Assembly (NCBI RefSeq): GCF_007556815.1
Contig: NZ_CP041743.1
Span: 1,860,001 to 1,924,000 of the forward strand
DNA: 64,000 bases
Reading direction: 5' to 3'
Origin: Paraburkholderia megapolitana
Lineage (GTDB): Bacteria > Pseudomonadota > Gammaproteobacteria > Burkholderiales > Burkholderiaceae
Shown here: positions 8,350 to 46,598 of the stretch, piece after piece
Numbering within the stretch: the first letter of the stretch is position 1
Layout of the letters: each line of letters begins with the position of its first letter
Made by a program: the position numbers and the translations under genes
The notes under the pieces: generated by a model
Databases searched by the model: none
The model's input: the letters and a program-made list of their open reading frames with translations, nothing else
Told to the model about the DNA's origin: nothing

Positions 8350-8363
8350 TTGATCTACATCAA
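8350..8363. promoter_or_regulatory. FNR/ANR-type box
   Basis: TTGATCTACATCAA matches the FNR consensus TTGAT-N4-ATCAA in all ten arm positions. It lies 68 bases before the alcohol dehydrogenase start at 8432. Confidence 0.8.
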
Positions 8364-8431
8364 CTGGTTCTTCGTATGCGAGTCTAGAGTTTCGTCAGAG
8401 AGGAACTTTCGCTCCTGATAGAGGTTTGACG

Positions 8432-11470: not shown

Positions 11471-11565
11471 CCGCGCGCATTGCTTACTACTCATGTACTG
11501 CCCGGAGCCGACACCGTGCGCCAATGTCCGATCAATGCAACAAGATGCGACTGCAGGGACCCCAG

Positions 11566-15556: not shown

Positions 15557-15939
15557 GCCAATGCGCGGGAGCTTGATCGATATCAAAAATCGATCGCAGT
15601 GGATGGTTAAGGTGACTTTCATCCAGGGCGTGTCGCGTATCGCCGGCGTCTCGCTGTGGACTCATCTGATAGCGGTACAGGAAAACTGATGCTTATCGTC
15701 GACGAGCGACGGCCGGGACACAGACAAGAGGGAAGCCGCATTCATCTTCTGTTGCGGCGACGGTGTCTCGCACGCGATCTGGCCGTGGCACTCGCAGTGA
15801 AGTTTGCGTTGCTCGGCGCGCTATATATGGTTTTTTTCTCAAACACACAGAGCGTTGAACCACGCGTCGTTTCTGCCGCCGTTGCGCACATTGTGGCCGG
15901 CGATCCCCGACCGTCCGCGGAGACCCATGATGATCGATA
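15557..15939 (+). repeat. cyd promoter-cydP segment, copy 1 (functional)
   Basis: A 383-base segment covering the FNR box, leader, cydP and the first codons of cydA. A diverged inverted copy lies at 35240-35621, before the phosphoketolase gene. Here the T-run at 15831-15837 has seven T and the cydP frame is open; the other copy has six. Confidence 0.85.
15573..15586. promoter_or_regulatory. FNR/ANR-type box of the cyd operon
   Basis: TTGATCGATATCAA matches the FNR consensus in all ten arm positions. It lies 102 bases before cydP. The bd oxidase is a classic target of low-oxygen regulators. Confidence 0.82.
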
Positions 15940-15940
15940 A
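15689..15940 (+). CDS. cydP: Cytochrome bd oxidase small subunit-type protein CydP
   Basis: An 83-residue protein with one membrane helix ([21 protein letters not shown], about residues 30-50) after an Arg-rich start, then a short tail [12 protein letters not shown]. This matches the CydP family found directly before cydAB in Beta- and Gammaproteobacteria, thought to be a small accessory subunit of the oxidase. AGGAAA precedes the ATG at 15689. It overlaps the cydA start by 14 bases. A frameshifted relative lies at 35238-35489. Confidence 0.8.
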   Translation: MLIVDERRPGHRQEGSRIHLLLRRRCLARDLAVALAVKFALLGALYMVFFSNTQSVEPRVVSAAVAHIVAGDPRPSAETHDDR

Positions 15941-21397: not shown

Positions 21398-22594
21398 ATG
21401 CCATCGAGGATCCTGTCGATATTCGGCACGCGGCCGGAAGCCATCAAAATGGCGCCGCTCGTCAAACAGCTCGAACTGGATCCGGCCATTGAATCGATCG
21501 TCTGCGTGACGGGACAGCATCAGCAGATGCTCGATCAGGTGCTGGATCTGTTTCAGATCACCCCTCATTACAATCTCGCATTGATGAAGGGTAACCAGAC
21601 GCTCAACGGTCTGGCGTCGAGTCTGATCGCTTCGCTCGACGATGTGCTTGCCACTGTTCAACCTGACCGCGTGCTGGTCCATGGCGACACCACGACGGCG
21701 TCGGCGGCCGCACTTGCCGCATTTCATCGCCGCATCCCGATCGGCCACGTGGAGGCAGGGTTGCGTACCGGCAATCTGATGCAGCCGTGGCCGGAAGAAA
21801 TGAACCGCCGTATCGTCGACGTTATGAGCGACCTGATGTTCGCGCCCACGGCGAGTTCAAAAGCGAATCTTGTGGCCGAGGCCCTGTATGGCGAGATCAT
21901 TGTCACCGGCAACACGGTGATCGACGCACTGAGCCTGACGACCACCCGTATCGCCAACGACGCGGCGCTGCGTGCCAGGCTCGACGCGTACCTGCCGTTT
22001 CTTGACGGTTCGCGGCCAATTCTGCTTGTTACCGGCCATCGCCGCGAAAGTTTCGGCGGGGGCTTTGCGAATATCTGCAACGCGCTGGCCGATCTGGCGA
22101 AGACCGACACGGTGCAGATCGTATATCCGGTGCATTTGAATCCGAACGTGCACGGTCCCGTACAGAGTGCGCTCGGAAAGGCGCGTAACGTGCATCTCAT
22201 TGAGCCACTCGACTATCTGGGTTTCGTGCGGTTGATGCAGCGTGCGACGATCATCCTGACCGATTCGGGCGGCGTACAGGAAGAGGCACCTGCGCTCGGT
22301 AAGCCGGTGCTGGTGATGCGCGACGTGACAGAGAGACCTGAGGCGGTCGCTGCCGGTACGGTACGCCTTATTGGCACGGCACGCGAAGCCATCGTGCATG
22401 CGGTGACGGACCTGCTCGAGGACGCACAGGAACGCGATGAATTCGCACACCGGATCAATCCGTACGGCGACGGCCGCGCGTCTGAACGGATCGTTGCGGC
22501 CCTGGCCGGCCGTCCGTTCGACGAATTCGCAGGCGGTGCGGGTCGGCAGGCCCATCCGGCCATGCCTGTCGCATCGCAGGAAGTCGCAGGATAG
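21398..22594 (+). CDS. wecB: UDP-N-acetylglucosamine 2-epimerase (non-hydrolysing)
   Basis: A 398-residue cytoplasmic enzyme that converts UDP-GlcNAc to UDP-ManNAc. Family motifs: FGTRPEAIKMAPLV (8-21), VHGDTTTASAAALAAFH, HVEAGLRTG, and DSGGVQEEAPALGKPVLVMR with TERPEA. The C-terminal 30 residues are a low-complexity extension. As first gene of the operon it would supply ManNAc units. In E. coli, WecB is required for the NfrA/NfrB-dependent glycan that serves as the phage N4 receptor, so its placement next to nfrB and nfrA is meaningful. Confidence 0.95.
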   Translation: MPSRILSIFGTRPEAIKMAPLVKQLELDPAIESIVCVTGQHQQMLDQVLDLFQITPHYNLALMKGNQTLNGLASSLIASLDDVLATVQPDRVLVHGDTTTASAAALAAFHRRIPIGHVEAGLRTGNLMQPWPEEMNRRIVDVMSDLMFAPTASSKANLVAEALYGEIIVTGNTVIDALSLTTTRIANDAALRARLDAYLPFLDGSRPILLVTGHRRESFGGGFANICNALADLAKTDTVQIVYPVHLNPNVHGPVQSALGKARNVHLIEPLDYLGFVRLMQRATIILTDSGGVQEEAPALGKPVLVMRDVTERPEAVAAGTVRLIGTAREAIVHAVTDLLEDAQERDEFAHRINPYGDGRASERIVAALAGRPFDEFAGGAGRQAHPAMPVASQEVAG

Positions 22595-22755
22595 TGCCCC
22601 CCGCGCGAACCTCGTTTCGCTGATGCCTCAGGCGAGGGCGGCTCCGGCGTGGTTTCAACCGGTCCTGCTCTAACGCTGGCAACCTCTGCTTTCATGGAAC
22701 CCTCAGTGCAACGACTTCGCTGCGCTGCTTATGCACCCATTCGAGAAAGAACGAC

Positions 22756-24975
22756 GTGACCATCAATACGCTTGTGCGCAGTTTTGCGCTCTCTCAGTTG
22801 AACGCGCTTGCCGTGTTGTTGCTGCTGGCTTCCACCGCTTATGCGCAACAACCTCAACTGCCCCAGCGGGCGACCGACGTCGCCGGCAGCTTTGCACAAC
22901 TCGGCAGCGGGCGTCTCGCGACACGCACCGTGTCATTGACTGGCCTGGGTATTCGCGATCCGTTGGTGCTGCATGCACCCGACGGCCGTCAGGAACTGTA
23001 TCTGCCGGTGCCAGCCAACGTGCCGCTGACCGATGCGACACTGCAGATCGACGGTAGCTATTTGCGCGGCGACGGCGGCCGCACCACCATGCTGCTTTCA
23101 CTCGACGGTTCACCGGTGCTCTCGCGCAGCCCCACGCAGCCCCAGGGCGACGGCTCCGCAACGCTCGGAGTGGACGGCGCCCCGCGACCGAACGGCATGG
23201 TGCGTGTCGGTCTCGACTGGTCATCGGTGATCAACGATAACATCTGTACCGATCAGACTGCGATCGGCAACGTCTGGCGTATCGCGCCGACTTCGCGTCT
23301 GACCTACCGCTACGATCCGGATGCAATAGTCGATCTGCGCAGCGCGTGGAGCGCGTTGCCGCAAGAGCCGGTGGTGATGCTCGGGGCCGCCACGCTAGCT
23401 GCGCCCGCGTTCGATGCTGGCTGGCGTGTCGAGGCGCTGCTGCAGCGTGACGGCCATACGCCTGTGACGCGCGCATGGCCGGCCGTTGGCGAGACCGTTG
23501 ATCTGGGCAACGTGCAGGTGCCGGCTCCACTTCGTGCGATTCCGGCGTTTGCCGCGCTCGCTGCGGGGGGCTCGCACAAGCTCGCAAGTCCCGCGGAAGT
23601 CGGTGCCCTGATGGCGCTCGCGCCCGGTTCCGCGTTCGCGCCCGACGTGATCGTTGCCGACGACACCCTGCGCAACACGCTGAAAACCACGCTCGACGCG
23701 TTGCGCGAGCAGGTGGTCGGCGCATCGCCGGATGCGGCCGCCGCGTTCGACGCATGGCGAGAACGCGCGGTCGATCCGATCGCGCAGCCGCTTGCAGCGG
23801 GCGAAGTGCGCCTCGCGCATCTCGGTGGCCAGACCGCGATCGTGGTGGGCGATAACAATGGCGTCGCGCTGCTCGCGCGCAGCTGGCGTCCGATCGATGT
23901 TGCAAGCCGCCTCGTCGTCCATGAGGTGGACAACGCGCCGGATACGCGCGGTGACCGGATTGCACTGTCGCTCCTCGGTGGCGAGCCGCGTACGCTCGAC
24001 GTGCAGGGTCGTGCGACGTGGGACGCGAACTTCGACCTCGGCGCGGCTTCTGGCAACGGCAAGCTGCCGGGTGCCGTGGTGCTCGACGTCGCCGCATCGC
24101 CCACACCGAACAACACCGCGCAAACGGCGTCGGTGTATTTCAACGACGTGCTGATTGGCTCGCAACTGCTGGGTGCCAACGGTAAGCCACAGCGTATTTC
24201 CGTGCGTGTGCCGCGCTACGCGCTCGCGCCGAACAACCTGCTGCGCGTGGTGTTCCAGCGCCAGCCAGAAGGCGGTTGCCAGCCGCGCAGTCAGGGTTAT
24301 CCGATCGCCGTGCTGCCGACCAGCCATCTGACGCTGGTCGATGCGAAGGTTGATGACGATTTCACCGGCATGGATGCGCGATACGCGTCGGACGCGAATG
24401 TGGTGGTGCCCACGTCCTACCTGAACGACGCCATCCATACGTTGTCGCGGATCGCGCGACTGGCGAATGCGAGCGGTATCGCACCGACGCGCGCGAATTT
24501 CAGCGTCGCACAGGATGGTCAGTCGTTCGCGCCGAAGGGCGCGTTCCTTGCCGCCGATGTGATGCTCGCCGACGAGAAAAACCTGACACGTCTGAGCAAG
24601 GACCGTCTGTCGCTGACCGATGCCTCCGGCAAGATGCTCATCGACGTGTCTGGCCTGAGCCGTATCGGTGTGATCGAGGTGGTGAGGTCGGGTAGCGTGT
24701 CGGGCATCGCCTATCGTACCGTCGGCGACACTTCGGCGATTTTCCCGGCCTCGCTGCAGCTGTCGCACGGCGATATCGCGATTGTCGACGGTAGCGGTGT
24801 GCTGCGTCAGTTCGACACGCGGCATCCGGGCGAAGTGATCGACGACGACGCGCAGGATCAGCGATTTGTGCTGGGTTGGGTGCGCTGGGGCGTTCCGGTC
24901 GTACTGGTCGGCCTGCTGATTGTGCTGCTGCTGGTGGCCAGGATCGCGCGCCGCAGGAATCGGGACAAGTCGTGA
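22756..24975 (+). CDS. BcsB-like periplasmic, membrane-anchored polysaccharide synthase subunit
   Basis: A 739-residue protein with signal peptide (ALAVLLLLASTAYAQQ), a large periplasmic beta-rich part and one C-terminal membrane helix (VPVVLVGLLIVLLLVARIARRR). The layout and pieces such as NTAQTASVYFNDVLIGSQLL and NNLLRVVFQRQPEGGCQ match BcsB, the cellulose synthase partner that guides the growing chain through the periplasm. It starts with GTG. The last bases overlap the nfrB-like start (GTGA). Since no BcsA is present, it probably serves the NfrB-type transferase instead. Confidence 0.75.
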   Translation: MTINTLVRSFALSQLNALAVLLLLASTAYAQQPQLPQRATDVAGSFAQLGSGRLATRTVSLTGLGIRDPLVLHAPDGRQELYLPVPANVPLTDATLQIDGSYLRGDGGRTTMLLSLDGSPVLSRSPTQPQGDGSATLGVDGAPRPNGMVRVGLDWSSVINDNICTDQTAIGNVWRIAPTSRLTYRYDPDAIVDLRSAWSALPQEPVVMLGAATLAAPAFDAGWRVEALLQRDGHTPVTRAWPAVGETVDLGNVQVPAPLRAIPAFAALAAGGSHKLASPAEVGALMALAPGSAFAPDVIVADDTLRNTLKTTLDALREQVVGASPDAAAAFDAWRERAVDPIAQPLAAGEVRLAHLGGQTAIVVGDNNGVALLARSWRPIDVASRLVVHEVDNAPDTRGDRIALSLLGGEPRTLDVQGRATWDANFDLGAASGNGKLPGAVVLDVAASPTPNNTAQTASVYFNDVLIGSQLLGANGKPQRISVRVPRYALAPNNLLRVVFQRQPEGGCQPRSQGYPIAVLPTSHLTLVDAKVDDDFTGMDARYASDANVVVPTSYLNDAIHTLSRIARLANASGIAPTRANFSVAQDGQSFAPKGAFLAADVMLADEKNLTRLSKDRLSLTDASGKMLIDVSGLSRIGVIEVVRSGSVSGIAYRTVGDTSAIFPASLQLSHGDIAIVDGSGVLRQFDTRHPGEVIDDDAQDQRFVLGWVRWGVPVVLVGLLIVLLLVARIARRRNRDKS

Positions 24976-27137
24976 GCATCGGGCTGATCAAATGGTATAG
25001 CGGGTACGTCGTCGCTCACTATTACCAGGGGCTTGAGTACGTCGCGGCGGTAGTGGCGGCCATTATCCTGCTGTCCAGTTTCGACGATCTGTTCATCGAT
25101 GCCTGGTACTGGACGCGCACGCTCTATCGCTGCTTCACGGTGAAGCGCATCTACAAACCGCTAACTACTGCACAGCTGTATCAGCGCGAGGAGCAGCCGA
25201 TCGCGATCATGGTGCCGGCGTGGCATGAGTACGACGTGATCGCCGCGATGCTCGAAGACCTGGTGCGAGTGGTGGATTACCGCAACTACGTGGTGTTCGT
25301 CGGTACCTATCAGAACGATCCCCAGACGATCGCCGAAGTGGATCGCATGCGTCGCCGTTATAAGCAACTGCAGCGCGTCGAGGTGCCGCACGACGGCCCG
25401 ACCTGCAAGGCCGACTGCCTGAACCGGGTGATTCAGGCGATCTTGCGGCATGAGAGCGAGGCGGATATCGAGTTCGCGGGTGTCGTGCTGCACGATAGCG
25501 AAGACGTATTGCATCCGGTCGAGCTGAAGTTCTTCAACTACCTGCTGCCGCGCAAGGACATGATCCAGCTGCCAGTTGCGTCGCTCGAGCGCAACTGGTT
25601 TGAACTGGTGGCAGGAACCTACATGGATGAATTTGCCGAGTGGCATGCGAAGGATCTGGTGGTGCGCGAGAGCCTTGTCGGCTGGGTACCGTCGGCGGGT
25701 GTCGGCACCTGTTTCTCGCGCCGCGCGCTGCTCGCGTTGATCGACGAAACCGACCGGCAGCCGTTCAATACCGAAAGCCTGACCGAGGATTACGACGTCG
25801 GGGCAAGGCTCGGCAGGATGGGCATGCAGTCGATCTTTGCGCGCTTTCCGGTGCAGTTCGCGACGCGCCGCAAGGCCTGGTTCGGCCTCGGCAAGGAGCG
25901 CGATATCACCGTGACGATGCCGCTGTGCGTACGCGAATTTTTCCCCGACACACTCCGCACCGCGTACCGGCAGCGCGCGCGCTGGGTGCTCGGCATCGGT
26001 CTGCAAGGCTGGGAGCAGACCGGCTGGACCGGCTCGCTGGTAAATCGTTATCTGCTGTTTCGTGACCGCAAGGGGATCGTGACCGCGTTCGTCAGTATTC
26101 TCGCGTACGTGCTGGTCGTTCAGTTTTTGCTGTTTGCCGCGGCCGATGCGCTCGGTGTGATGCCAGATCTGATCGCGTCGCCGTTCTCCGACTCGGGCTG
26201 GATGCGAGCGTTGCTATGGATGAACGGCTGCGCGCTCCTGTTGCGCGTCGCGCAACGCTTCTATTTCGTGACCCGCCTGTATGGCTGGGAGCACGGTGTG
26301 CTTTCCGCCCCGCGGATGGTAGTCGGCAATTTCATTAACTTCATGGCCGTATCGCGTGCGTGGAAGTTGTTCGTCTCGCACCTCGTGACCGGTAAGCGGC
26401 TTGCGTGGGACAAGACCATGCACGATTTTCCTTCCGCGGATGGTTTTATCAATCGCCGTCAACGCCTGGGCGAGCTGCTGATGTCGTGGCAGGCGATCGA
26501 TGCAGACAGGCTTGAGCAGGCACTCGGCGACAGGCATGCGCGCGAAGCGCCGCTTGGCCGCGTGCTGATGGCGAAGGGCTGGCTGGACGACGAAACCCTC
26601 GCCGAAGCGATTGCGTTCCAGGCGGATCTGCCGCGCGGCAGGCTCGATGTGCCAAGACTCGCGCAGGACGCCATACATTTGCCACTCGAAGCGATCGTGC
26701 GTCACCGCGTGTTGCCGCAATCCAGTGAAGCAGGTAGTCCCATCGTTTTGCTGACGGCGGGCCCGCTCACCGAACCCGCGATTGCTGAATTGACCGGGCT
26801 GGCGAGCGGTCCGATCGCGCAGCGCATCGTCCGCGAAGGCGAGATCGCCGCGGGGTTGCGGTTGCTGCGAGGTGTCGACGTCGCAACGCCGGTGGCTACA
26901 CCTGCCTCCGCCGGCGAGGTGCCCACGCGCGGCGCACCGCTGATTGGTGATCTGCTGATCGAATACGGCCACGTGCGGCGCGAAGCGTTCGAAGTCGCGA
27001 TGCAGCACTATCGTCCGGATCTCCATGGCCGTATCGGCGAGTACATGGTGGCGTGCAACGTCATCTCGCGTGTCGCACTCGACAACGTAATCCAGCAGCA
27101 GCGTCGCCTGCTTGACGATCCAGCGGCCGCCAAATGA
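24972..27137 (+). CDS. nfrB: NfrB-type inner-membrane glycosyltransferase with c-di-GMP-binding MshEN domains
   Basis: A 721-residue protein. An N-terminal membrane helix (VAAVVAAIILL) leads to a family 2 glycosyltransferase domain (IAIMVPAWHEYDVI; VLHDSEDV as the DxD-like site; TEDYDVGARL; QRARWVLGIGLQGW as the QxxRW motif), then membrane helices (to about residue 470). The C-terminus has MshEN units: RLGELLMSWQAIDADRLEQAL with PLGRVLMAKGWLDDETLAEA, and later IGDLLIEYGHV and RIGEYMVACNVI. E. coli NfrB is activated by c-di-GMP through this domain type. The GTG start overlaps the upstream stop codon. Confidence 0.9.
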   Translation: MSIGLIKWYSGYVVAHYYQGLEYVAAVVAAIILLSSFDDLFIDAWYWTRTLYRCFTVKRIYKPLTTAQLYQREEQPIAIMVPAWHEYDVIAAMLEDLVRVVDYRNYVVFVGTYQNDPQTIAEVDRMRRRYKQLQRVEVPHDGPTCKADCLNRVIQAILRHESEADIEFAGVVLHDSEDVLHPVELKFFNYLLPRKDMIQLPVASLERNWFELVAGTYMDEFAEWHAKDLVVRESLVGWVPSAGVGTCFSRRALLALIDETDRQPFNTESLTEDYDVGARLGRMGMQSIFARFPVQFATRRKAWFGLGKERDITVTMPLCVREFFPDTLRTAYRQRARWVLGIGLQGWEQTGWTGSLVNRYLLFRDRKGIVTAFVSILAYVLVVQFLLFAAADALGVMPDLIASPFSDSGWMRALLWMNGCALLLRVAQRFYFVTRLYGWEHGVLSAPRMVVGNFINFMAVSRAWKLFVSHLVTGKRLAWDKTMHDFPSADGFINRRQRLGELLMSWQAIDADRLEQALGDRHAREAPLGRVLMAKGWLDDETLAEAIAFQADLPRGRLDVPRLAQDAIHLPLEAIVRHRVLPQSSEAGSPIVLLTAGPLTEPAIAELTGLASGPIAQRIVREGEIAAGLRLLRGVDVATPVATPASAGEVPTRGAPLIGDLLIEYGHVRREAFEVAMQHYRPDLHGRIGEYMVACNVISRVALDNVIQQQRRLLDDPAAAK

Positions 27138-29806
27138 CTGAGTTACTTCTCATGACAGGCACGCGGGCAGTATCCGCAACTGCTTGCAGGCAGACTCGCG
27201 TGTCTGTGTGTGTGCCACCTTCCGTGTCTTCGATGCGGCACGTTGCCGCCGTTATGGTGACGGGTGTGCTGTGCTTTGGCGCAAGCTCCGGACATGCGCA
27301 AACATCGACGCAGGCGCAGGGCGAAGTGGGCGCAGCACGGATGTCAGGTGCATCCGGCACGCAGAACGCGCCTGATACATCCGGTGCAGTGAGCATCGCG
27401 AGTGCGCAGCTGCCGGCCGCCTCGGAGCCGCTGCCGCTGAGCGGTGCCGCGTATCGGGTCGCGCAGGACGCCTACGCGGCCTATGCGCGCCACGACTACC
27501 CGACGGCAGTTGCGGCCGCGCGCGAAGCGATTCGCCAGCGGCCCGACGTCGCATCGCTGCGCCTCCTGCTTGCCAATGCGCTGGCGGCAGAACGTCACTC
27601 TGGCGAGGCGAGCCGTTCAGGTCCTGGTAGCCGCGAACTGCCCGGCGACCCGAACGCCCTGACCGGCGCGGCGCTGACCAGTGCGCAGCAGGCGTACAAC
27701 GCCTATGACGCGAAGGATTTCCCGGCCGCGGTCCGATATGCAAACGAGGCGATCGCGCAACGTCCCGACGTGCTGCGGCTACGTTTGCTGATGATCGACG
27801 CGGCCAGTGCTGCCGGTCAGGACGCCGATGCCTGGAGCGCCGATCTCGACGCCGTCAGGCGTTTCGGCGACCGCGACGAATTGAGTTTGCGTCGTCGCTT
27901 TATCGGCAACCGGCTGGCGCCGAAGGCATCCGGCAGCTCGTATGCGGCGCTCAAGCGTGGCGACGATGCGCAGGCAGTAGCACTCGCGCGGCAGACAGTC
28001 GAGTACGAGCCTGATAAGGCCAGCTATCGCGTGCAGCTGATCGATACGCTGTTCGCCACCAACGATCTGGCTGGCGTGCAAGCCGCTGCAAGCGCGGCGA
28101 TTGCTGCCGACGACATCGGGATCATGCTGTTGACGCTGCACGGTTACGCGCTCGCTGCGCAAGGCAAGACGAGCGAGGCCGATACAGACTTCTCGAAAGT
28201 GCAGCAGGCACACGATGCGACGCAGCGCAATCAGCGCATTGCGCGTGTGATCATCGCCGACGTGTGGATTGCCGAGGGCGAGGCGCAGCGCGCACTCGAC
28301 CTGCTCGCGCCACTGAAGACGAACGGCGATGACACCGACCCACCGATCGCCCTGCGCCGTTACCAGGCGCGGCAGTTGCTGGCGAAGGCTTCGTCGCAGG
28401 TGCCTGCCGTCGCGCCTGCACGAGCCGTGACTGCCCAGGCGATCGATCCAGCGAGGCGCCCGGTGATCGACTGCACCGTTGATCAATTCGGCGCGAGTTG
28501 CGACGTCTACGCAGCCGACCCCGGCTTCTTCGCCGCACGAGCCTCCGCTGCCGCGACGACTGCGAAGGACAGGACCGGCGCAGTCGGTTACGCACGCGAA
28601 GCAGTCAAGGCTGCACCGGACGACCCGCAGCATCGGATCGAGTTGATCGATGCGCTGAGCGCAGCGGGCGATGCGAAGTCGGCGACCCGCGAAGCGCGCA
28701 GGATGATCGACGCGGGCATGGACGCCGCGATGCCGGACCTGAGCGCGGCGTACATCGCACAGCGGGCCGGCGATAGCCGTCTCGCCTATGAGCACTTCAG
28801 GCGAGCCGACGAAGCCGGGCAACTGCCGGCTCGCGCGAATGCCGACGCCGGCTACGCAGCGTGGCGGGCACACCGTAACCGCGACGCCGCGAAGTATTTC
28901 GAACGCGCGATCGATGCAAACACGGCAGTCGACGCAACGATAGCGACGTCAGCGGCGCCGACGACAAGCGCTGCTCCAGCCGTGCCCAAAGAAGTCGCAA
29001 ACGACGCGCTGAACGGCGGCAACGCACCTGTCACCCCAATCGCGCTGAACGACATTCGCAGCGCGCATGCGGACGTCACCCGCAACTGGGGTTTCAACGT
29101 GTCGATGAACTATCGTGGTGCGGGGATACAACCGGGTTTCTCGCCGTCTCCGGCGCAGAGCACGTCGAACAACTGGCAGACCGGTGTCGAAGCATACTGG
29201 CGGCCGTTCGGCAGCCTGGGTGACCGGATGTTCGAAGTCTACGCACGCGGTTACGAAAGCTTCGGCGTGAAGGGCGGCAGTCCAAGCGGCGCCGACACAC
29301 TGCAGGCAGCGGTCGGCGCGCGCGCGAAGCCGTTTTCCCAGATCGATGCGATCGTCGCCTTCGAACGGATCATTCCGATCGGGTCGTCGGTCAATCCGGA
29401 CTGGCTCGCGCGGCTCGCGTATTCGGGCGGCTTCGGCACCGCACGTCGCGTCGACGTGCCGTCGTGGTGGACCGCGCAGATCTACGCCGAGGCCGGCCAC
29501 TACCTGAATGGCGATTCGACCTACGCAACCACTAACCTTGAATTCGGCCGCACGTTCCGGATGGACCGCTACAGCCCGAAGTGGACGGTGTTTCCGTACG
29601 CGGTGATCGGTGCGGACTACGACTCGACCGTCGATCACAGCATTCCGCTCGGCGCAGGCATCGGCATTTCGACGCGCTACTGGATGCGCGACAGCATGTA
29701 CGATACACCGCGTTCGTATATCGATCTGTCGGTGCAGTATCGTTTGAAGATCACCGGCGACGATCGCGCGCGTGGCGTTTTCTTCGGCGCCACCTACTCG
29801 TATTGA
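27134..29806 (+). CDS. nfrA: NfrA-type outer-membrane glycan exporter/phage N4 receptor-like protein
   Basis: An 890-residue protein. The first ATG overlaps the nfrB stop codon (ATGA), but the signal peptide begins at the Met of residue 34 (MRHVAAVMVTGVLCFGASSGHA), so 27233 is an alternative start. TPR-like helical repeats follow (YAAYARHDYPTAVAAAREAIRQRP and AYNAYDAKDFPAAVRYANEAI at about residues 115-215, more near 460-600), then a C-terminal beta-barrel of about 230 residues, rich in aromatic strands and ending with YSY. This matches NfrA, the outer-membrane component of the N4 glycan receptor system. Confidence 0.85.
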   Translation: MTELLLMTGTRAVSATACRQTRVSVCVPPSVSSMRHVAAVMVTGVLCFGASSGHAQTSTQAQGEVGAARMSGASGTQNAPDTSGAVSIASAQLPAASEPLPLSGAAYRVAQDAYAAYARHDYPTAVAAAREAIRQRPDVASLRLLLANALAAERHSGEASRSGPGSRELPGDPNALTGAALTSAQQAYNAYDAKDFPAAVRYANEAIAQRPDVLRLRLLMIDAASAAGQDADAWSADLDAVRRFGDRDELSLRRRFIGNRLAPKASGSSYAALKRGDDAQAVALARQTVEYEPDKASYRVQLIDTLFATNDLAGVQAAASAAIAADDIGIMLLTLHGYALAAQGKTSEADTDFSKVQQAHDATQRNQRIARVIIADVWIAEGEAQRALDLLAPLKTNGDDTDPPIALRRYQARQLLAKASSQVPAVAPARAVTAQAIDPARRPVIDCTVDQFGASCDVYAADPGFFAARASAAATTAKDRTGAVGYAREAVKAAPDDPQHRIELIDALSAAGDAKSATREARRMIDAGMDAAMPDLSAAYIAQRAGDSRLAYEHFRRADEAGQLPARANADAGYAAWRAHRNRDAAKYFERAIDANTAVDATIATSAAPTTSAAPAVPKEVANDALNGGNAPVTPIALNDIRSAHADVTRNWGFNVSMNYRGAGIQPGFSPSPAQSTSNNWQTGVEAYWRPFGSLGDRMFEVYARGYESFGVKGGSPSGADTLQAAVGARAKPFSQIDAIVAFERIIPIGSSVNPDWLARLAYSGGFGTARRVDVPSWWTAQIYAEAGHYLNGDSTYATTNLEFGRTFRMDRYSPKWTVFPYAVIGADYDSTVDHSIPLGAGIGISTRYWMRDSMYDTPRSYIDLSVQYRLKITGDDRARGVFFGATYSY

Positions 29807-31498: not shown

Positions 31499-32659
31499 TC
31501 AGTCTTCCGTCTCGCGCAGCAACGCTTGGCAATGCCGGGCGATCTGCCGTTCCTCGTTGGTGTGCATTGCCTTGACCTTACCGTTCGCATCCTCCGCGAA
31601 CAGCCCGAGAAAACCGAGCCCCTCGCAAACGCGGCTCCGCACTTCGGCGCTGTGCTCGCCGATACCACCAGTGAACACCAGCAGATCGATGCCGCCTAGC
31701 AGCGCCGCGTAAGCGCCGATGTATTTGCGCACGGCCGTGACGAGCACGTCGACAGCGAGCGCGGCATCGCGATCGCCGGCAGCGCTGCGGCTGAGTAACG
31801 CCTGCATGTCGCTCTCGCCGCCCGCCAAACCCGCGAGGCCGCTGTCGCGATTCAGCAGGTTCTCGATCTGCTGTGCGTCGAGTCGCTCCGTGCGCATCAG
31901 ATAGAGCACGACGCCGGGATCGAGATCGCCGCTGCGGGTGCCCATCGGTACGCCGCCAGTCGGCGTGAGCCCCATCGACGTATCGACAGAACACCCGTCC
32001 CGCAATGCGCACACACTCGAGCCGTTGCCGAGATGCGCCAGCACCGCGCGCCGCGGCAACGCGTCTCCCAGACGATGCACCAGCGATTCGTACGACAGCC
32101 CATGAAAGCCGTAGCGAATCACACCGGCATCCGCATAGCGGCGCGGCAACGCGAGATGGGACGCATGCGGTGGCAACGTGCGATGAAATGCCGTATCGAA
32201 ACAGACGAACGCCTGCGCGCCGTCGAAAATCTCAGTTGCCTGGTCGATCAATGCAAGTGCCGGCGGAATATGCAGCGGCGCAAAATGCACGGCTTCCTGC
32301 AACTGCTGCCGCACCTGCGGCGTCAGACGCTGATGCGTGCGCAAATGCGGACCGCCGTGAACCACGCGATGACCGACCGCCGCCGGGCGGCCGTGGCCAT
32401 GTTCGGCGAGCACATCGGCGAGCGTGCGTAGTGCGTCGGTCTGCGACTCCATCACGTGGGTCTTCTGCCACCGCACGGAGCCATCGGGCGAGCGCATCTT
32501 CAAGCTGCCGTCGGGCCGACCGATGCCCTCCGCGCTGCCTTCGAGGAGCACCGTCTCGTCGTGCGCCTCTCCCGCGGTGCCGTCGGTGTCGAACAGTCCG
32601 AACTTGAGCGACGACGAGCCACTGTTCAACACGAGAATGGTCTGTCCTGACGTATTCAT
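31499..32659 (-). CDS. ackA: Acetate kinase
   Basis: A 386-residue enzyme that turns acetyl phosphate and ADP into acetate and ATP. Motifs: [15 protein letters not shown] (9-23), [38 protein letters not shown] and [13 protein letters not shown]. It overlaps the phosphoketolase gene by four bases (ATGA). With phosphoketolase it forms a two-step route from sugar phosphates to ATP and acetate without respiration, fitting a low-oxygen operon. Confidence 0.96.
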
Positions 32660-35055
32660 GCTCGCGTACCTTCGCCAGCCCACGTCCAGTTGCGAATCTC
32701 CTCCCTGTCGATGCCCTCGGCATGCGCATACGCAAGATGCTCGATGATCTGGCCACGCAACCATTCCTTCGCATGATCGCCGACGCCGCGCAGCCTGGGC
32801 ACACGGTCGATCACATCGATTGCGAGCGAGAAGCGGTCCACCTCGTTGATGATCGCCAGTTCGAGCGGCGTGTTGATGTTGCCCTTCTCGCGGTAGCCGT
32901 GCACGTGCATGTTGTCGTGGTTGTTGCGCTTGTAGCTCAGCTTGTGCACCAGCGACGAATACGAATGGAAGTTGAAGATGACCGGCTTGTCGGCGGTGAA
33001 GATCGAATCGAAGTCGCGGTCCGACAGCCCATGCGGATGCTCGGTGTCCGGCATCAGGCGAAACAGATCGACCACATTGACGAAGCGGATCTTCAGGTCG
33101 GGGAACTGCGCCTTCAGGATCTCGACGGCGGCGAGCGATTCCATCGTCGGGATATCGCCCGCACACGCCATCACGACGTCAGGATCGGCGTGCTGGTCGG
33201 TCGACGCCCATTCCCAGATGCCAATGCCCTTCGTACAGTGCGTGACCGCCGCGTCCATGTCGAGATACTGCAGATGCGGCTGCTTGTCGGCGACGATCAC
33301 GTTCACGTAGTCACGCGAGCGCAGGCAATGATCGGCCACGCTCAACAGGCAGTTGGCATCGGGCGGCAGATAGATCCGCACGACGTCCGGACTCTTGTTC
33401 GTGACGACATCGAGAAAGCCCGGGTCCTGATGCGTGAAGCCATTATGATCCTGGCGCCAGACCAGCGAGGTGATCAGCAGGTTGATCGACGGCACGGGTT
33501 GACGCCACCTCAGTTCGCGCTTCGCTTTCTCGAGCCACTTCGCATGCTGGTTGAACATCGAATCGATCACGTGCACGAACGCTTCATAGGTGGCGAAGAG
33601 TCCATGCCGCCCGGTCAGCACGTAGCCTTCGAACCAGCCTTCGAGCGTGTGTTCGCTCAGCATTTCCATCACGCGGCCGTCGACCGACAGTTCGCCGCCG
33701 TCCGCATCGTCGGCGATCGTTTCGGCTAGCCAGGTTTTCTGGGATGCCTCGTAGATCGCGGTGAGCTTGTTGCTCGATGTTTCGTCCGGGCCGAACACGC
33801 GGAAGTTGCTCATATTGCGCCGCATGACCTCGCAGAGAAACTTCCCGAGCACATCGGTCGGTGACACGTAACGGCTTGCGGGCGTCGTCACGTCGACGCC
33901 GTATTCGCGAAATGACGGCATGTCGAGCGCGCGACACAGCAGGCCGCCGTTCGCATGCGGATTCGCGCTGATGCGTCGCGTGCCGGTGGGCGCCAGCTCG
34001 CGCAGCTCTGCCACAAGGCGTCCTGATTCGTCGAACAGTTCTTCAGGCCGGTAGCGCCGCATCCAGCTCTCGACGAGCTTCAGGCTCGTTTCGTTAGTCG
34101 CGGGATCGAGCACCGGCACCTGGTGCGCGCGCCACGAGCCCTCTACTTTGTGCCCGTCCACTTCCCGTGGACCGGTCCAGCCTTTCGGCGAACGCAGCAC
34201 GATCATCGGCCAGCGCGGTCGCCTGGCGCTGCCTGTCGAACGCGCATGCTGCTGGATCGCGCGGATTTCCTCGATGCAGTGCTCCATCGTTGCGGCCATT
34301 TTCTGATGCATCTGCGCAGGGTCGTCGCCTTCGACGAAATACGGCCGGTGGCCGTAGCCGATGAACAGCGCTTCCAGTTCCTCGTGCGGGATACGCGCGA
34401 GGATCGTCGGATTGGCGATCTTGTAGCCGTTCAGATGCAGGATCGGCAGCACGGCGCCGTCGCGGATCGGGTTGAGGAATTTGTTCGAATGCCAGGACGT
34501 CGCGAGCGGACCGGTTTCGGCTTCGCCGTCGCCGACCACAACCGCGACGATCAGGTCGGGATTGTCGAAAGCCGCGCCGTAACCATGCGAGAGGCTGTAA
34601 CCCAGTTCACCGCCCTCGTGGATCGAGCCGGGCGTTTCGGGCGTGCAATGCGAGCCGATGCCACCCGGAAACGAGAATTGCCGGAAGAACTGACGCATTC
34701 CGGCCTCGTCCTCGCTGCGGTCCGGGTAGATCTCGGAGTAATGCCCTTCCAGATAACAGCTGGCCAGTGTGGCCGGCGCACCGTGGCCGGGACCGGCGAT
34801 ATAGATGACGTCGAGGTTGAGCTTCTTGATGAGCCGGTTCAGATGGACCAGCACGAAGCTCTGCCCGGCATCGGAGCCCCAATGCCCAAGCAGACGGTTC
34901 TTGATGTGCCCGGGCTTGAGCGGTTCGCGCAGCAACGGGTTTTCGCGCAGGTAAATCATTCCCGCTGCGAGGTAATTGCAGGCGTGCCAATACCGATCCA
35001 TCTTGCGTAGCGCATCGGCGCTGAGAGGCGATTCGCTACCACGGGTATCGGCCAT
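32656..35055 (-). CDS. xfp: Xylulose-5-phosphate/fructose-6-phosphate phosphoketolase
   Basis: A 799-residue thiamine-diphosphate enzyme that splits xylulose 5-phosphate or fructose 6-phosphate with phosphate to acetyl phosphate and a shorter sugar phosphate. Motifs: [55 protein letters not shown] (thiamine diphosphate site), [19 protein letters not shown]. Usual length is about 790-830 residues. The frame is open upstream to 35415, but ATG 35055 has GGAG before it and begins the conserved region. The upstream DNA is a copy of the cyd promoter with an FNR box. Confidence 0.96.
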
Positions 35056-35237
35056 TTCGCTGCTCCAGGAAGTGAACTGCCTGCTCAGGATGAGGGCGTT
35101 CGTCGATTGGGGCGCCAAAGTACGCCAGGGTTGACGCAAGCCTTGCGGGGCAAGCGTTTGTGGGACACGAGATCCGTAGATCTGACACGTGTGAGCGCCG
35201 CTGTCGCGAACGAGATGGCTATCGGTTGAGGTTCGGA

Positions 35238-35489
35238 GGTATCGATCATCCTGGGTCTCCGCGGACAGTCGGGGATGGCCGGCCACAATGTGCGCGACGG
35301 CGGCGGCAACGACGCGTGGTTCGACGGTCTGTGTGTCTGAGAAAAAACCATATATAACTCGCCGGGCAAAGCAAACTTCACTGCAAGTGCCACGACCCGA
35401 ACGCGTGCGAAACACGGGCGTCGCAGCAGTAGCTGGATGCTGTTTCCCCCGCGTCGGTGTCCCGGCTGTCGCCCGTCGACGATATGCAT
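35238..35489 (-). pseudogene. cydP: Frameshifted cydP copy upstream of xfp
   Basis: Reading from 35489, the protein starts as CydP ([13 protein letters not shown], then [18 protein letters not shown]), but the run of six T (minus strand, 35342-35347) is one short of the seven in the intact gene, so the rest ([20 protein letters not shown]) falls in another frame. The stop codon is also lost: the frame runs on towards xfp. It keeps the actual ATG, the ribosome binding site and the FNR box of the cyd copy. Confidence 0.85.
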
Positions 35490-35621
35490 CAGTTTTCCTG
35501 TGCCACTATCGGATGAATCGATGGCGAGCCGTCAGCGCCATGCGGGATGCCCTCGCTGAAAGTCACTTTAGCCATCCACTGCGATTGATACTTGATATCG
35601 ATCAAGCTCCTGCGTATTGGC
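35240..35621 (-). repeat. cyd promoter-cydP segment, copy 2 (drives xfp-ackA)
   Basis: A 382-base inverted copy of 15557-15939. Similarity runs from GCCAATACGC upstream of the FNR box through the cydP remnant to ATGATCGATA, the first codons of cydA, and stops there. Most bases match by eye. Confidence 0.85.
35592..35605. promoter_or_regulatory. FNR/ANR-type box of the xfp-ackA operon
   Basis: TTGATATCGATCAA matches the consensus in all arm positions and is the exact reverse complement of the cyd box. It was kept intact although the adjoining cydP has decayed. It lies 537 bases before the xfp start, but only about 103 before the old cydP start. Confidence 0.8.
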
Positions 35622-35935
35622 GAGATGAATTGGACAGGTCGTCCCTGTGCCGCTTCCGAGCAGCAGTTGGTCAAACGCATAACGAGCCACGCAGTGAACC
35701 AAAGACAGATTGATTGCCGATGAGGCTACCGACGAGTACTCATAGAGCGAATCACTTCAGTGCGGCGAGCCGTGCAAGCGAGTTAAGCCAGGTACTGCAG
35801 CTATGACTGTGTTCTCAGTCGAGGTCTGTCCGGTGCCGGACGTTTGAGAGTGTGCAAGAGTTGGGAAGGCTCCAGGGATGGTCGTCGGCTTCGTGTGGAG
35901 TACGCTGAGCGGTATTGGAACGGCGGGAGTAGATC
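35622..35935. other. Intergenic, no gene recognised
   Basis: No supported coding frame. It separates the xfp promoter from a transposase remnant. Confidence 0.4.
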
Positions 35936-36355
35936 ATGCGCTGGATCATCGAAGCAAGGTTGGCCGACAGCGACACGGTCACTGATAGTGACGAAGTTCT
36001 GGCCGTGATTGAACGCCGTGGCTGCAGTCTTGCCCAGCTGGGCCCGAGCCTCGCAAAGGGGTGCACACTGCTGGCCAAAGTGCAGGCGGGGCTGGTTTCA
36101 AAACAGGTGGAGGGGTCGGCGATGAATCAGGTCGTCAGCCACCGCATGGCGAAGAAGCAGCAGATGCGCTGGACTGACGAAAGAGCGCACTGCATGGCAC
36201 AGGTCAGGATCGCGGTTCTGAACGGAGAACTTCACCCCGCTGTATCGCGGCGCTCCGGGCAGCGGCCTTGCGGCACGTCAAGTGCAGCGGGACAGCGTCG
36301 ACAGGTCAGCTCCGTCTATCGAACAAACCAGGCATGCAGAGCTGCCTATATTTAA
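35936..36355 (+). pseudogene. Probable transposase C-terminal remnant
   Basis: A 139-codon frame. Its middle and end (SKQVEGSAMNQVVSHRMAKK, then QQMRWTDERAHCMAQVRIAVLNGEL) look like the C-terminal region of DDE transposases (ISKra4/ISL3-like proteins end in a similar KQQMRWTxxGAHxxxQxRxxVLNGEL). The N-terminal catalytic part is absent. Family assignment rests on memory of such endings and is uncertain. It marks a recombination scar next to the xfp promoter copy. Confidence 0.45.
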
Positions 36356-37438: not shown

Positions 37439-38464
37439 ATGCAGTTCGATTGGTATGAGTTGTTCGACGAGTTGAAGCGCCGCGGCCATTTCGACAGCGA
37501 TGCACAACTGGCGGATAGCCTGGTGCTCACCCGCTCCCAGATCTCTGCGTGGCGAACCGGCAAGAGCGATCTCGGAACGCTGACCAAGATCAAGATCCTC
37601 GATGCGCTCGGCCACGACACCTTGCGCTCGGCGGTGTTGAGCCTGCTGCCTGAGAAGAATCGCGTGGAGCAGGTCCGGCAGCAGGAGCATCTGATCGCGC
37701 GCGTGAGCGGGCGCGCTCACGCGTACGGAAGAAACGGCGCGTATCACGAGAGCACGCCCGATTCCCCGGTGAGCCGCAATAGTCTGCTGGCCGCATTGCC
37801 GAAAGAGGAACGCGAGCGTATCGAGCCGCATCTGTCGACGGTGACGTTGCCACTCGGCCAGGTCGTGTATGAATCGGGCGACCACCTCAGTCACATCTAT
37901 CTACCCACCACCGCGATCATCTCGATGTTGTACGTGATGGAGAACGGCGCGTCGGCGGAGATCGCGGTGGTCGGTCGGGACGGATTGCTCGGCGTCGCGC
38001 TCTTCATGGGCGGCGAGACGATGCCGAATCGTGCGATCGTGCAGAGCGCCGGCGAAGCCTTCCGCCTGAGCGGACAGGTCGTCAAGGATGAGTTCGCGCG
38101 CGGCGGTGCGATACAGCGCCTCTTTCTACGCTATACCCAGGCGCTCATCACGCAGATGGCGCAAACGGCAGTCTGCAACCGGCATCATTCGATCGCCCAG
38201 CAGTTCTGCCGGTGGCTGCTGCTGAGTCTCGACCGTCTGGAGTCGAGCGATGTCCGCATGACGCAGGAACTGATCGCGAACATGCTGGGCGTGCGTCGGG
38301 CCGGCGTCACGGAAACGGCGAAGAAACTGCAGGAGGACGGCGTCATCCGTTACACCCGTGGGCTGATCGAGGTGCTGGATCGCGCGGCGCTGGAAACCCA
38401 GGTCTGCGAGTGCTACAAGGTGGTGAAGCGCGAGAGCGACCGGTTGTTCAGCGGGTTGCTATAA
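37439..38464 (+). CDS. Cro/CI-like (DUF3693-type) plus Crp-family fusion regulator
   Basis: A 341-residue protein. Residues 1-70 form a phage-repressor-like helix-turn-helix (DSDAQLADSLVLTRSQISAWRTG), of the type in DUF3693/Cro-CI proteins. After a linker, residues 115-335 are a Crp-family regulator (PLGQVVYESGDHLSHIYLPTT, ALFMGGETMPNRAIVQSAG, then MTQELIANMLGVRRAGVTE as helix-turn-helix). The Crp part is a close paralogue of the proteins at 41266 and 45879, which lack the N-terminal domain. No Fe-S cysteine cluster is present. Two DNA-binding domains in one chain are unusual. A poor ribosome binding site precedes the ATG. Confidence 0.88.
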   Translation: MQFDWYELFDELKRRGHFDSDAQLADSLVLTRSQISAWRTGKSDLGTLTKIKILDALGHDTLRSAVLSLLPEKNRVEQVRQQEHLIARVSGRAHAYGRNGAYHESTPDSPVSRNSLLAALPKEERERIEPHLSTVTLPLGQVVYESGDHLSHIYLPTTAIISMLYVMENGASAEIAVVGRDGLLGVALFMGGETMPNRAIVQSAGEAFRLSGQVVKDEFARGGAIQRLFLRYTQALITQMAQTAVCNRHHSIAQQFCRWLLLSLDRLESSDVRMTQELIANMLGVRRAGVTETAKKLQEDGVIRYTRGLIEVLDRAALETQVCECYKVVKRESDRLFSGLL

Positions 38465-41128: not shown

Positions 41129-41265
41129 CCGCGCACGTACATTGGCCGGCGATCTGAAGAGAGCGCCGCTCGCAGTATTCATTCAACGATTGCTTTATGA
41201 CGATTGTGTCGGGAGCGGAGCGGCGAACATTCTGCCGTTTTCGACCCGGCAGCGGGAGTGCGAAC

Positions 41266-41985
41266 ATGTTGCAAGAACATCATCAAAACAGGAATCACCT
41301 GCTCTCGGTCCTTCCAGAACCCGAGTGGGCGCGCGTGGCACCGCATCTGGTGCTGATGGATATGCCGTTGGGGCAGGTCGTCTATGAATCGGGCGACCGT
41401 CTGCATCACGTCTATTTCCCGACCACGGCGATCGTATCGCTGCTGTACGTCATGGAGGATGGCGCGTCCGCCGAAATCGCGATCGTCGGTAACGAGGGGG
41501 TAGTCGGCATTGCGCTCTTCATGGGCGGCGAAACGACGCCTAGCCGCGCAGTGGTGCAAAGCGCTGGGCAGGCGTACCGACTCGAAGCGAGGATTCTGAA
41601 AGAAGAATTTCACCGCGCCGGTCCGGTGCAGCGCCTGCTGTTGCGCTACACCCAGGCGCTGATTACGCAGATGGCGCAAACGGCGGTCTGCAACCGGCAC
41701 CATTCGATCGACCAGCAATTGTGCCGGTGGCTGCTGCTCAGCATCGATCGTTTGCCGTCGAACGAACTGAAGATGACGCAGGAACTGATCGCCAACATGC
41801 TCGGTGTGCGCAGACCCGGCGTGACCGAAGCGGCGATGAAACTGCAGGACGCCGGGTTGATCCGCTATAGCTACGGCCACATCGAGTTGCTGGACCGGCC
41901 GGGACTCGAGCGCCGGGTTTGCGAATGCTATGGCGTTGTGAAGCGCGAGTTCGATCGCCTGCTGCCCGATCTGAAAGCGCTGTAG
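41266..41985 (+). CDS. Crp-family transcription regulator (paralogue 2)
   Basis: A 239-residue regulator with N-terminal cyclic-nucleotide-binding-like barrel (PLGQVVYESGDRLHHVYFPTT; ALFMGGETTPSRAVVQSAG) and C-terminal helix-turn-helix (MTQELIANMLGVRRPGVTEAA). It lacks the FNR cysteine cluster, so it is not an Fe-S oxygen sensor. Start 41266 has GGGAG upstream and gives the same length as the paralogue at 45879. The ligand is unknown. Confidence 0.9.
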   Translation: MLQEHHQNRNHLLSVLPEPEWARVAPHLVLMDMPLGQVVYESGDRLHHVYFPTTAIVSLLYVMEDGASAEIAIVGNEGVVGIALFMGGETTPSRAVVQSAGQAYRLEARILKEEFHRAGPVQRLLLRYTQALITQMAQTAVCNRHHSIDQQLCRWLLLSIDRLPSNELKMTQELIANMLGVRRPGVTEAAMKLQDAGLIRYSYGHIELLDRPGLERRVCECYGVVKREFDRLLPDLKAL

Positions 41986-45147: not shown

Positions 45148-45400
45148 CTGAAGTGGCAACGCGCGAAGCCGTACGAGAAGTTCGCCGCGATGATCGAGCG
45201 CTATTGGGATGGAACCACTGCTTTTTGTAAGCCAGAGGACAGGGTGCCACCTGGTTTCGTTGAGGGACTCGTAAACAAGATCCGGGCCATCCAGCGCCGA
45301 GTTTACGGGTTGCGTGACACAAAGTATCTGCACCTGAAGACCCTCACCTGCATGCTGCCTCATCTACGAAAACACCATTTTCACCCACACGATTTCCAGA
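45148..45400 (+). pseudogene. ISL3-family transposase C-terminal fragment
   Basis: The reading frame from about 45151 gives KWQRAKPYEKFAAMIERYWD, then GFVEGLVNKIRAIQRRVYGLRD and KTLTCMLPHL, the typical end of ISL3-family transposases. The N-terminal and most catalytic parts are absent. The frame then continues without a break into a piece of another gene, so the insertion or a deletion joined two fragments. Confidence 0.8.
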
Positions 45401-45411
45401 AACCACTTTTT

Positions 45412-45590
45412 GGGAGTGCCGTCATTAAGAGCGTCATCACAGTCCCGATCATGGTGCTCATGATGAAGATGGCATCGCATCGGGACATGATGGGGACGTA
45501 TCGCACTTCAGGCACGTTGCGGGTTGTTAGCTGGCTGGCGACGATTGTGATGGTCGTTGCCGTTGTGGGAATGTCCTGCTTTCTTCAGGA
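45412..45590 (+). pseudogene. Nramp-type metal transporter C-terminal fragment
   Basis: In the same frame as the transposase fragment: SAVIKSVITVPIMVLMMKMA, SHRDMMGTYRTSG and LRVVSWLATIVMVVAVVGMS. This resembles the last two helices of Nramp (MntH) manganese/iron transporters (VPIM...MASxRxxMG...LGWLATxVMxxAxxGM). The other roughly 370 residues are absent. It appears to be what remains after transposon-linked deletion. Confidence 0.6.
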
Positions 45591-45792
45591 AGCGATCCCG
45601 ACGTATGACAATTGTCAGGGCGGTTACGGTGGGTACCAGTACGGGATCGTACCGACATGCCGGGCCGTTGCGTACATCGTGCACAGGAGTAATCCGTGCA
45701 CAACGCGGTGAAGTCAAATCAATGCGCGCACGGAACATGACGTCCAGTTCTCTGGTCACGATTGCCGCCGATCTCACGAATGGATAACAACC

Positions 45793-45879
45793 ATGAATCC
45801 TCTATCGCTGTTTCTTCTCGCCGCGGTTGTTTTCGCGCTCCTCGATCCGGTTTTTGACAGGATATTGAGGCGCCGCTAA
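45793..45879 (+). CDS. Tiny single-helix membrane protein
   Basis: A 28-residue frame, MNPLSLFLLAAVVFALLDPV followed by FDRILRRR. Its first residues resemble the start of the slipin at 44242 (MNPITLFLAAVFVLAG). Its stop overlaps the start of the following Crp gene by one base (TAATG), so the pair is translationally coupled. Confidence 0.55.
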   Translation: MNPLSLFLLAAVVFALLDPVFDRILRRR

Positions 45880-46598
45880 TGCCGAACGTATACCAACCCA
45901 AAGACAATCACCTGCTGGCGATGCTCGCGCAAGCAGAGTGGGAGCGCATGGCACCGTATCTCGTGGCGATTGACCTCCCGCTGGGACAGGTTATTTACGA
46001 GTCAGGAGACCCCATCCAGCATGTCTACTTTCCCTCAACGGCCATCGTCTCGCTGCTATATGTGATGGAAGACGGTGCCTCTGCGGAGATCACGATCGTC
46101 GGCAACGAGGGGCTCATCGGTATTGCTGTCTTTATGGGGGGCGAGACGACCTCGAGCCGTGCCGTCGTGCAAAGCGCCGGTCGCGCATATCGGCTCGGCG
46201 CACGAATCCTGGGAGACGAATTCCATCGCGGCGGTCCTGCGCAGCGGTTACTGCTGCGCTATACCCAGGCGCTGATGGCTCAGATGGTGCAGACCGCCGC
46301 GTGCAACCGGCATCACTCGATTGACCAGCAATTGTGCCGCTCGCTGCTGCTCAGTCTCGACCGTCTCCCATCGAGCGAACTGAGGATGACGCAACAACTC
46401 ATCGCCAACATGTTGGGTCTCCGTCGCCCTGGTGTAATGGATGCAGCAATGAAACTGCAGGAGGCAGGATTGATCCGCTACAGCTATGGCAACATCGAAG
46501 TACTGGATCGACCAGGTCTGGAAAAGCGGGTGTGCGAATGCTATGCCGTGGTGAAACGGGAATTCGACCGGCTGCTGCCGGATCTGCAGGCGATATAG
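45879..46598 (+). CDS. Crp-family transcription regulator (paralogue 3)
   Basis: A 239-residue protein very similar to that at 41266 over its full length (PLGQVIYESGDPIQHVYFPST; VFMGGETTSSRAVVQSAG; MTQQLIANMLGLRRPGVMDAA; VCECYAVVKREFDRLLPDLQAI). It has no FNR cysteine cluster. The start is coupled to the 28-residue membrane protein. Three such paralogues within 9 kb suggest local duplication. Confidence 0.9.
   Translation: MPNVYQPKDNHLLAMLAQAEWERMAPYLVAIDLPLGQVIYESGDPIQHVYFPSTAIVSLLYVMEDGASAEITIVGNEGLIGIAVFMGGETTSSRAVVQSAGRAYRLGARILGDEFHRGGPAQRLLLRYTQALMAQMVQTAACNRHHSIDQQLCRSLLLSLDRLPSSELRMTQQLIANMLGLRRPGVMDAAMKLQEAGLIRYSYGNIEVLDRPGLEKRVCECYAVVKREFDRLLPDLQAI

Follow-up and report, generated by a model that had tools for sequence, protein, structure and literature searches.

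A decayed copy of the cytochrome bd oxidase leader in front of the phosphoketolase–acetate kinase operon of Paraburkholderia megapolitana

The cyd and xfp-ackA operons and their relatives

The window, by which we mean the whole stretch of 64,000 nucleotides analyzed here (Paraburkholderia megapolitana, contig NZ_CP041743.1, positions 1,860,001 to 1,924,000 of the forward strand), carries the cydPAB operon for the cytochrome bd oxidase on its plus strand and the xfp-ackA operon for phosphoketolase and acetate kinase on its minus strand, the two pointing at each other, together with a gene for an FNR-type regulator. The genes and their matches to protein family models are as follows.

1010 to 1849, minus strand: fnr-type regulator gene with the motif C-x2-C-x5-C (NF008365, 234.7 bits; cut-off 228)
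15689 to 15940, plus strand: cydP, intact, 83 codons (NCBIfam NF045611, 37.3 bits; cut-off 29.6; no Pfam family)
15927 to 17531, plus strand: cydA, cytochrome bd oxidase subunit I (PF01654, 560 bits)
17528 to 18631, plus strand: cydB, cytochrome bd oxidase subunit II (PF02322; TIGR00203 over the cut-off)
31499 to 32644, minus strand, start approximate: ackA, acetate kinase (PF00871; TIGR00016 over the cut-off)
32656 to 35055, minus strand: xfp, phosphoketolase, 799 aa (PF09364, PF03894, PF09363; NF003617, 1534.5 bits; cut-off 1143)

The start of ackA is approximate, as homology begins near residue 175 of the open reading frame at 31499-33166. Genes for chaperone, usher, and spore coat U domain proteins lie just upstream of cyd (10724-14855), and those for a UDP-GlcNAc 2-epimerase, a BcsB-like protein, a glycosyltransferase, and an NfrA-like protein lie between cyd and ackA (21398-29806). 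Signs of past mobile elements were also noted, namely a short Mutator-family transposase open reading frame at 19767-20426, which matches profile positions 22-183 of 379, and a weak ISL3 transposase match at 45190-45711 (E 0.0006, below the cut-off).

The order xfp then ackA was also found in P. fungorum (L053), P. graminis (L054), and Caballeronia glathei (L057), with xfp being 79-85% alike (85% in P. fungorum), and xfp-ackA is native to the genus. Beyond xfp-ackA, the flanks of these three loci (for C. glathei, 1.3 kb downstream) gave no match at E 1e-10 to any other open reading frame of at least 120 codons in the window.

The CydA of the window was at best 75% alike to the CydA proteins of the genus, and its nearest matches were two proteins at 83%, that of Trinickia symbiotica at 81%, and others down to that of Caballeronia sp. 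LjRoot29 at 78%. Because the protein is unlike those of the genus and has its nearest relatives elsewhere, the cyd operon would belong to a separate group and was probably transferred. The linkage of cydP with cydA holds across the genus loci compared, as each of these 29, which were the best 29 relatives from a genus-wide CydA search, has a CydP match upstream of its cydA (28 at E <1e-5 and one at 0.008). Within 1.5 kb, no exact FNR box was present in any of these 29 cyd leaders; one has a degenerate site, TTGACTTCCGTCAA, at −436. FNR control of cyd through this motif is therefore not a general trait of the genus. G248, a genome from the same family but another genus (CydA 82%), has the box TTGATGTACGTCAA, then cydP, and then cydA; no xfp match was found in it at E 0.001, an empty answer that is weak evidence.

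The cydP-cydA-cydB order with an upstream TTGATN4ATCAA site is also that of Burkholderia cenocepacia H111, for which a box, TTGATCTCGATCAA, is reported in front of cydPAB (PMC9104464) and Anr is reported to activate cyd, with a decrease from 82 to 1 Miller units in a double mutant in liquid culture (PMC11742914). The window differs from H111 in that its CydA is of the separate group and in that these accounts, in what they say of cyd, describe no copied leader before phosphoketolase.

The duplicated leader and the decay of its cydP

A second, decayed copy of the cyd start region is present in front of xfp-ackA. The sequence-only reading had proposed an end-to-end match of 15557-15939 to 35240-35621 taken in reverse complement, and global alignment bore this out: the segments, of 383 and 382 bases, were 84% alike, differing in 60 of 383 columns by 59 substitutions (36 transitions and 23 transversions) and 1 gap. 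Each leader retrieved its partner at E ~1e-117 in a DNA search of the own genome, a similarity far beyond chance. The limits that the same reading had given hold for this main block and fail on the 5' side, where a further homologous block shows that the duplicated unit is larger.

15468 to 15541, plus strand: upstream block of the copied unit on the cyd side (74 b, 86% alike to 35773-35846)
35773 to 35846, minus strand: upstream block of the copied unit on the xfp side (homologous to 15468-15541)
35622 to 35772, minus strand: spacer between the copied blocks on the xfp side (151 b vs 15 b in the cyd copy)

A longer version of the upstream match covers 81 b at 84%. The difference between the spacers may represent either an insertion on the xfp side or a deletion on the cyd side. 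At the 3' end, the similarity stops inside the first cydA codons, at 15945 on the cyd side and 35234 on the xfp side, and as a result the copied unit comprises ~478 b of the cyd leader, about 15468-15945, the two copies forming an inverted pair ~20 kb apart. A dispersed repeat was considered and rejected, as the leader occurs at only two places in the own genome and the plasmids gave no match at E 0.001; the leader searches of the genome showed no third place, apart from a 32-base match of 35094-35125. The latter aligns at 94% with positions 2107693-2107724 of another replicon (G000:C3) and also at 91% in a further genome (G090).

The place where the similarity stops bears on the possibility that the copy is the remnant of a second whole cydPAB operon, whose cydAB were deleted or replaced so that xfp-ackA came to lie behind the promoter, an origin that would give the same control and is compatible in function. 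A stop inside the first cydA codons is what a deletion junction could leave. Against this, 35001-35300 showed no significant similarity to cydA or cydB past the first codons (best protein E 1.8 and best DNA E 0.1), and the leader was found at two places in the genome only. We consider such an origin possible but doubtful.

The divergence, which the sequence-only reading had suggested comparing among regions, was 0/14 in the FNR box, 23/102 from the box to the cydP start, 25/142 in cydP before its T-run, and 8/88 after it. The copied cydP is represented by two features of the minus strand.

35240 to 35489, minus strand: cydP remnant (frame shifted at the T-run 35342-35347, loss of the stop, substitutions at invariant residues)
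35085 to 35489, minus strand: 134-codon open reading frame opened by the frameshifted remnant, ending 29 nt before the xfp start

As had been read from the sequence earlier, one T fewer in a T-run breaks the copied cydP, and its stop codon is lost. The missing T, which is the sole gap of the main block (7 T at 15831-15837 vs 6 T at 35342-35347), puts the copy out of frame past codon 47; the TAA stop of the cyd side, at 15938-15940, has no counterpart. Codons 30, 31, 42, and 44 encode V, R, P, and E in the copy vs D, L, L, and A in the intact cydP of the window (D30V, L31R, L42P, and A44E); among the 27 readable relatives, residues 30, 31, and 42 are D, I, and L in all 27, and residue 44 is A, V, T, or I. 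It is by the frameshift, the lost stop, and the changes at invariant residues that cydP is broken. Furthermore, 35085-35489 matched no family at E 0.001 in Pfam and NCBIfam, including the CydP model NF045611. The differences between the two cydP copies had no third-position excess, being 5, 12, and 8 of 47 each at the three codon positions before the T-run and 3, 2, and 4 after it. The dN/dS of the pair was 0.59 over 82 codons and 0.39 on a control core of 52 codons from 27 relatives (51 usable codons), where the 138 non-independent pairs of intact genes had 0.21 as their median and 0.53 as their highest value, 13 of them reaching 0.39; dN/dS thus gives modest support for the decay.

It could be argued that the missing T is a homopolymer assembly error and that the true product is a CydP-like N-terminus fused to phosphoketolase. 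The gap is the single indel in 383 aligned columns and falls in a homopolymer, one of the frames past the T-run continues without a stop, in phase, into xfp (that of the frameshifted cydP stops at 35085 and the third has stops), and dN/dS, once computed on the control core, speaks less strongly against a real protein. On the other hand, D30V, L42P, and A44E affect residues that are invariant or small in the 27 relatives, the codon differences have no third-position excess, the xfp of P. fungorum is matched from residue 1, at an ATG, and, among the 120 listed of 157 proteins matching the first 160 residues of the extended frame, the coverage was at most 38%, the xfp part being 25%. An open in-phase frame of such length would not be rare enough to count as evidence of a former cydP-xfp fusion. 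An assembly error is quite improbable in our judgment. RNA folding into a structured element was also considered for the junction upstream of xfp and set aside, with a z-score of −0.58.

As for the direction of copying, the cyd side is supported as the source and the xfp side as derived. Because cydP accompanies cydA at all 29 loci of the genus and the G248 genome has the box, cydP, and cydA in this order, the box and cydP belong with this cyd group, from which xfp received its copy; the derived state of the xfp side is likewise indicated by the loss of the frame, the stop, and residues invariant in 27 relatives from its cydP. The opposite direction, with the xfp side as the source, and gene conversion homogenizing the two leaders were considered in view of the uneven similarity, which is 91% past the T-run vs 70% in the leader. 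Both are opposed by the association of cydP with cydA throughout the 29 genus loci and by the presence of the cyd layout in an outgroup genome where no xfp was found, and we give them hardly any weight.

Predicted promoters, the FNR-type regulator, and the xfp regions of relatives

Three exact FNR boxes were found in the window, each followed by a hexamer at the same distance.

8350 to 8363, plus strand: exact FNR box, the third in the window, 68 nt upstream of an alcohol dehydrogenase-like (adh) gene
8385 to 8390, plus strand: hexamer TAGAGT of adh, 21 nt after the box
15573 to 15586, plus strand: FNR/Anr box TTGATCGATATCAA upstream of cydP-cydA, among the 9 exact boxes of the genome
15608 to 15613, plus strand: predicted −10 hexamer TAAGGT of cyd, 21 nt after the box
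35592 to 35605, minus strand: FNR/Anr box upstream of xfp, with the same sequence as the cyd box, also among the 9 exact boxes
35565 to 35570, minus strand: predicted −10 hexamer TAAAGT of xfp, 21 nt after the box

The 7.63-Mb genome contains 9 exact TTGATN4ATCAA boxes. When these were read in both directions, TAnnnT occurred 18-24 nt behind the box in 3 of 18 cases, always at 21 nt, against a background frequency of 0.0036 per position on the plus strand; these three, facing adh, cyd, and xfp, are the only such promoters among the 9 boxes, and all of them are in the window. The cyd promoter of G248 has TACAGT at the same 21-nt distance behind a box with one mismatch, and the build of box, 21 nt, and TAnRGT is common to xfp, cyd, adh, and the G248 cyd. 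The region of the adh-like gene (8350-9469) shares the spacing with cyd and xfp and is otherwise different in sequence. In class II FNR promoters, the box lies about 41 bases before the start site. The build found here, with the box at a fixed distance before a predicted −10 hexamer in a genome encoding an FNR protein with the cysteine motif, resembles such promoters; the hexamers agree with TATAAT at 3 of 6 places in cyd and 4 of 6 in xfp.

The FNR box of the copy is unchanged, as the sequence-only reading had pointed out (15573-15586 is identical to 35592-35605), and what had to be revised is its value as sole evidence, which is weak, because 14 unchanged bases are expected at the overall divergence with P ~0.10. 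The core promoter differed at 8/66 positions and the leader behind it at 16/53 (Fisher P 0.02), and the ribosome-binding site with the cydP start differed at 1/16.

These values bear on the possibility that the duplicated leader is an inert, neutral relic and that xfp-ackA is transcribed from another promoter, within the 184 b that precede xfp or further up. The chance expectation for the box alone would agree with a relic, as would the broken cydP and the distance of the copied box, which lies 550 b before the xfp start, the copied segment itself ending 184 bases upstream of that start. What a relic would leave unaccounted for is that the box, the 21-nt spacing, and the hexamer were all kept and that the core promoter changed less than the leader behind it. 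A scan of 34950-36000 also found no sigma-70-type site that could serve instead, though it misses the proposed promoter site as well. On balance, we consider an inert relic unlikely.

The candidate regulator is encoded in the same window. The genome has 18 CRP-type matches, of which 10 are over the Pfam cut-off (150 of 204 candidates scored), and, among these 10, for which the open reading frames were read, only that at 1010-1849 has the motif C-x2-C-x5-C. It adjoins genes for a sensor kinase of the PAS type and a response regulator; these matched several models weakly, and among the models shown only the PAS domain was over the cut-off. A nearer CRP-type regulator, at 37439-38464, was considered as the oxygen sensor and rejected for lack of the cysteine motif; it is one of three paralogous CRP-type regulators without this motif on the plus strand (37439-38464, 41197-41985, and 45879-46598), which are spaced 3.5 and 4.6 kb apart and whose 300-b samples are 68-78% alike to the reference copies.

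The upstream regions of xfp were then compared among relatives in 45 regions including the own one, comprising 30 genus loci and 15 named loci picked from 80, with L047 and L053 seemingly from the same genome. Within 1.5 kb of xfp, the box TTGA[TC]N4[AG]TCAA was present in none of the 44 relatives' regions, and a significant CydP match in none of them, the region of the window being the only one with either; looser box patterns were found in 2 of the 44. A further 59 regions of 1 kb, from 40 nearer and 19 more distant genes of a longer list, had no such box and no CydP match at E 0.1. Accordingly, the cydP fragments in front of xfp that the sequence-only reading had suggested looking for in other Paraburkholderia genomes were found in none of the 44 and 59 regions. 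Its claim that a copied cyd leader sits before xfp-ackA is supported by the alignment, and xfp occurs without the exact box or a significant cydP match in these 103 regions; the reading is thus supported in part, the low-oxygen control of xfp-ackA that it drew from the copy being a prediction.

A one-mismatch box was present in the xfp regions of six relatives (5/59 and 1/29), four of them at −239 to −242, so that a native FNR-like xfp site may exist in some relatives. TAnnnT was found 21 nt behind none of these six boxes; one locus (L183), with its box at −537, has TACCGT at 22 nt.

The leader DNA was found in none of 143 other genus genomes (E 1e-8) or 397 other family genomes (E 1e-6). As these searches did not find the cyd leader of any relative either, they exclude close copies only, and an older, diverged copy could be missed. 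With the limit relaxed to E 0.001, the leader had matches in 14 of 116 other genus genomes, all of them short (26 to 50 b) and none beside a listed cydA or xfp place. A genus-wide CydP family search gave two matches in the own genome, of which only the cyd one was detailed, and conclusions on broken copies elsewhere are therefore based on the DNA searches and the upstream scans. A CydP search of a set of 5.8 billion proteins returned no match at E 0.001, and so it neither places nor dates the copy.

Proposed capture of xfp-ackA and its relation to known systems

The most plausible explanation, and one that we consider probable, is that a duplicated FNR-dependent promoter captured xfp-ackA. A stretch of ~0.5 kb, with the predicted FNR-dependent cydPAB promoter, cydP, and the first cydA codons, was copied in inverted orientation to a place ~20 kb away. 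At low oxygen, the FNR protein would bind the copied box ~41 bases before the start site, in class II geometry, and recruit RNA polymerase to the copied promoter. As a consequence, we infer that phosphoketolase and acetate kinase, the latter converting acetyl phosphate to acetate with ATP formation, would be made together with the bd oxidase at low oxygen. The cydP remnant would then be a mere transcribed, perhaps partly translated, leader, with xfp translated from its own start.

More tentatively, the FNR gene, the three promoters built of box, N21, and TAnRGT, and the recruited native operon might together make the window a self-contained low-oxygen island whose regulon grows through copies of its own promoter. 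In a bolder form of this tentative suggestion, the copy might first have joined cydP in frame to phosphoketolase, the loss of one T then separating them and leaving the 134-codon frame as a translated leader before xfp.

Bacterial operons often change regulators, but promoters, being short and prone to decay, seldom keep a visible trace of such a change. In the present case, the broken cydP marks the source, the direction, and the boundaries of the copied segment, and thereby the sequence itself records how a central carbon pathway was probably brought under oxygen control. If capture did occur, the phosphoketolase-acetate kinase route, which yields ATP, and the bd oxidase would be under one regulator encoded nearby.

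Capture of a promoter by duplication is known as a process from citT in the Lenski experiment (Blount et al, 2012, cited in PMC4718724), in which, as in the capture proposed here, a duplication brings a structural gene under a promoter that belongs to a different operon; the expression of citT was changed thereby. The citT event is recent, arose in the laboratory, and was shown experimentally, whereas the present copy is an old, natural, inverted one ~20 kb away that is recognized from sequence alone and, unlike citT, is labeled by a broken gene. Two homologous segments lie before different operons, with the source and the copy distinguishable, and the best reading of the locus is a well-marked natural case of promoter capture beside its probable regulator.

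A link of phosphoketolase to low oxygen would not be unique to the window, since a putative phosphoketolase is among the predicted FixK targets in the FNR/FixK regulons of alphaproteobacteria (PMC2908626). That work differs in being a binding-site prediction in another class, and its account of these targets does not mention a copied promoter. Among the titles and abstract beginnings of the open-licence literature, we found no report of a cyd leader before phosphoketolase.

The duplicated leader also has a likeness to mobile promoters and promoter propagation (Matus-Garcia et al, 2012, cited in PMC8049555), in that a promoter-bearing segment is present at more than one place in the genome. A mobile promoter family has many copies, whereas the leader has two, both in the own genome, and none in the 143 genus and 397 family genomes searched, and the copied unit includes a whole small gene. 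The window also contains repeats of another kind, at 56170-63967, where three units of ~3.2 kb follow each other in direct order, with 300-b samples 63-93% alike to the reference copies.
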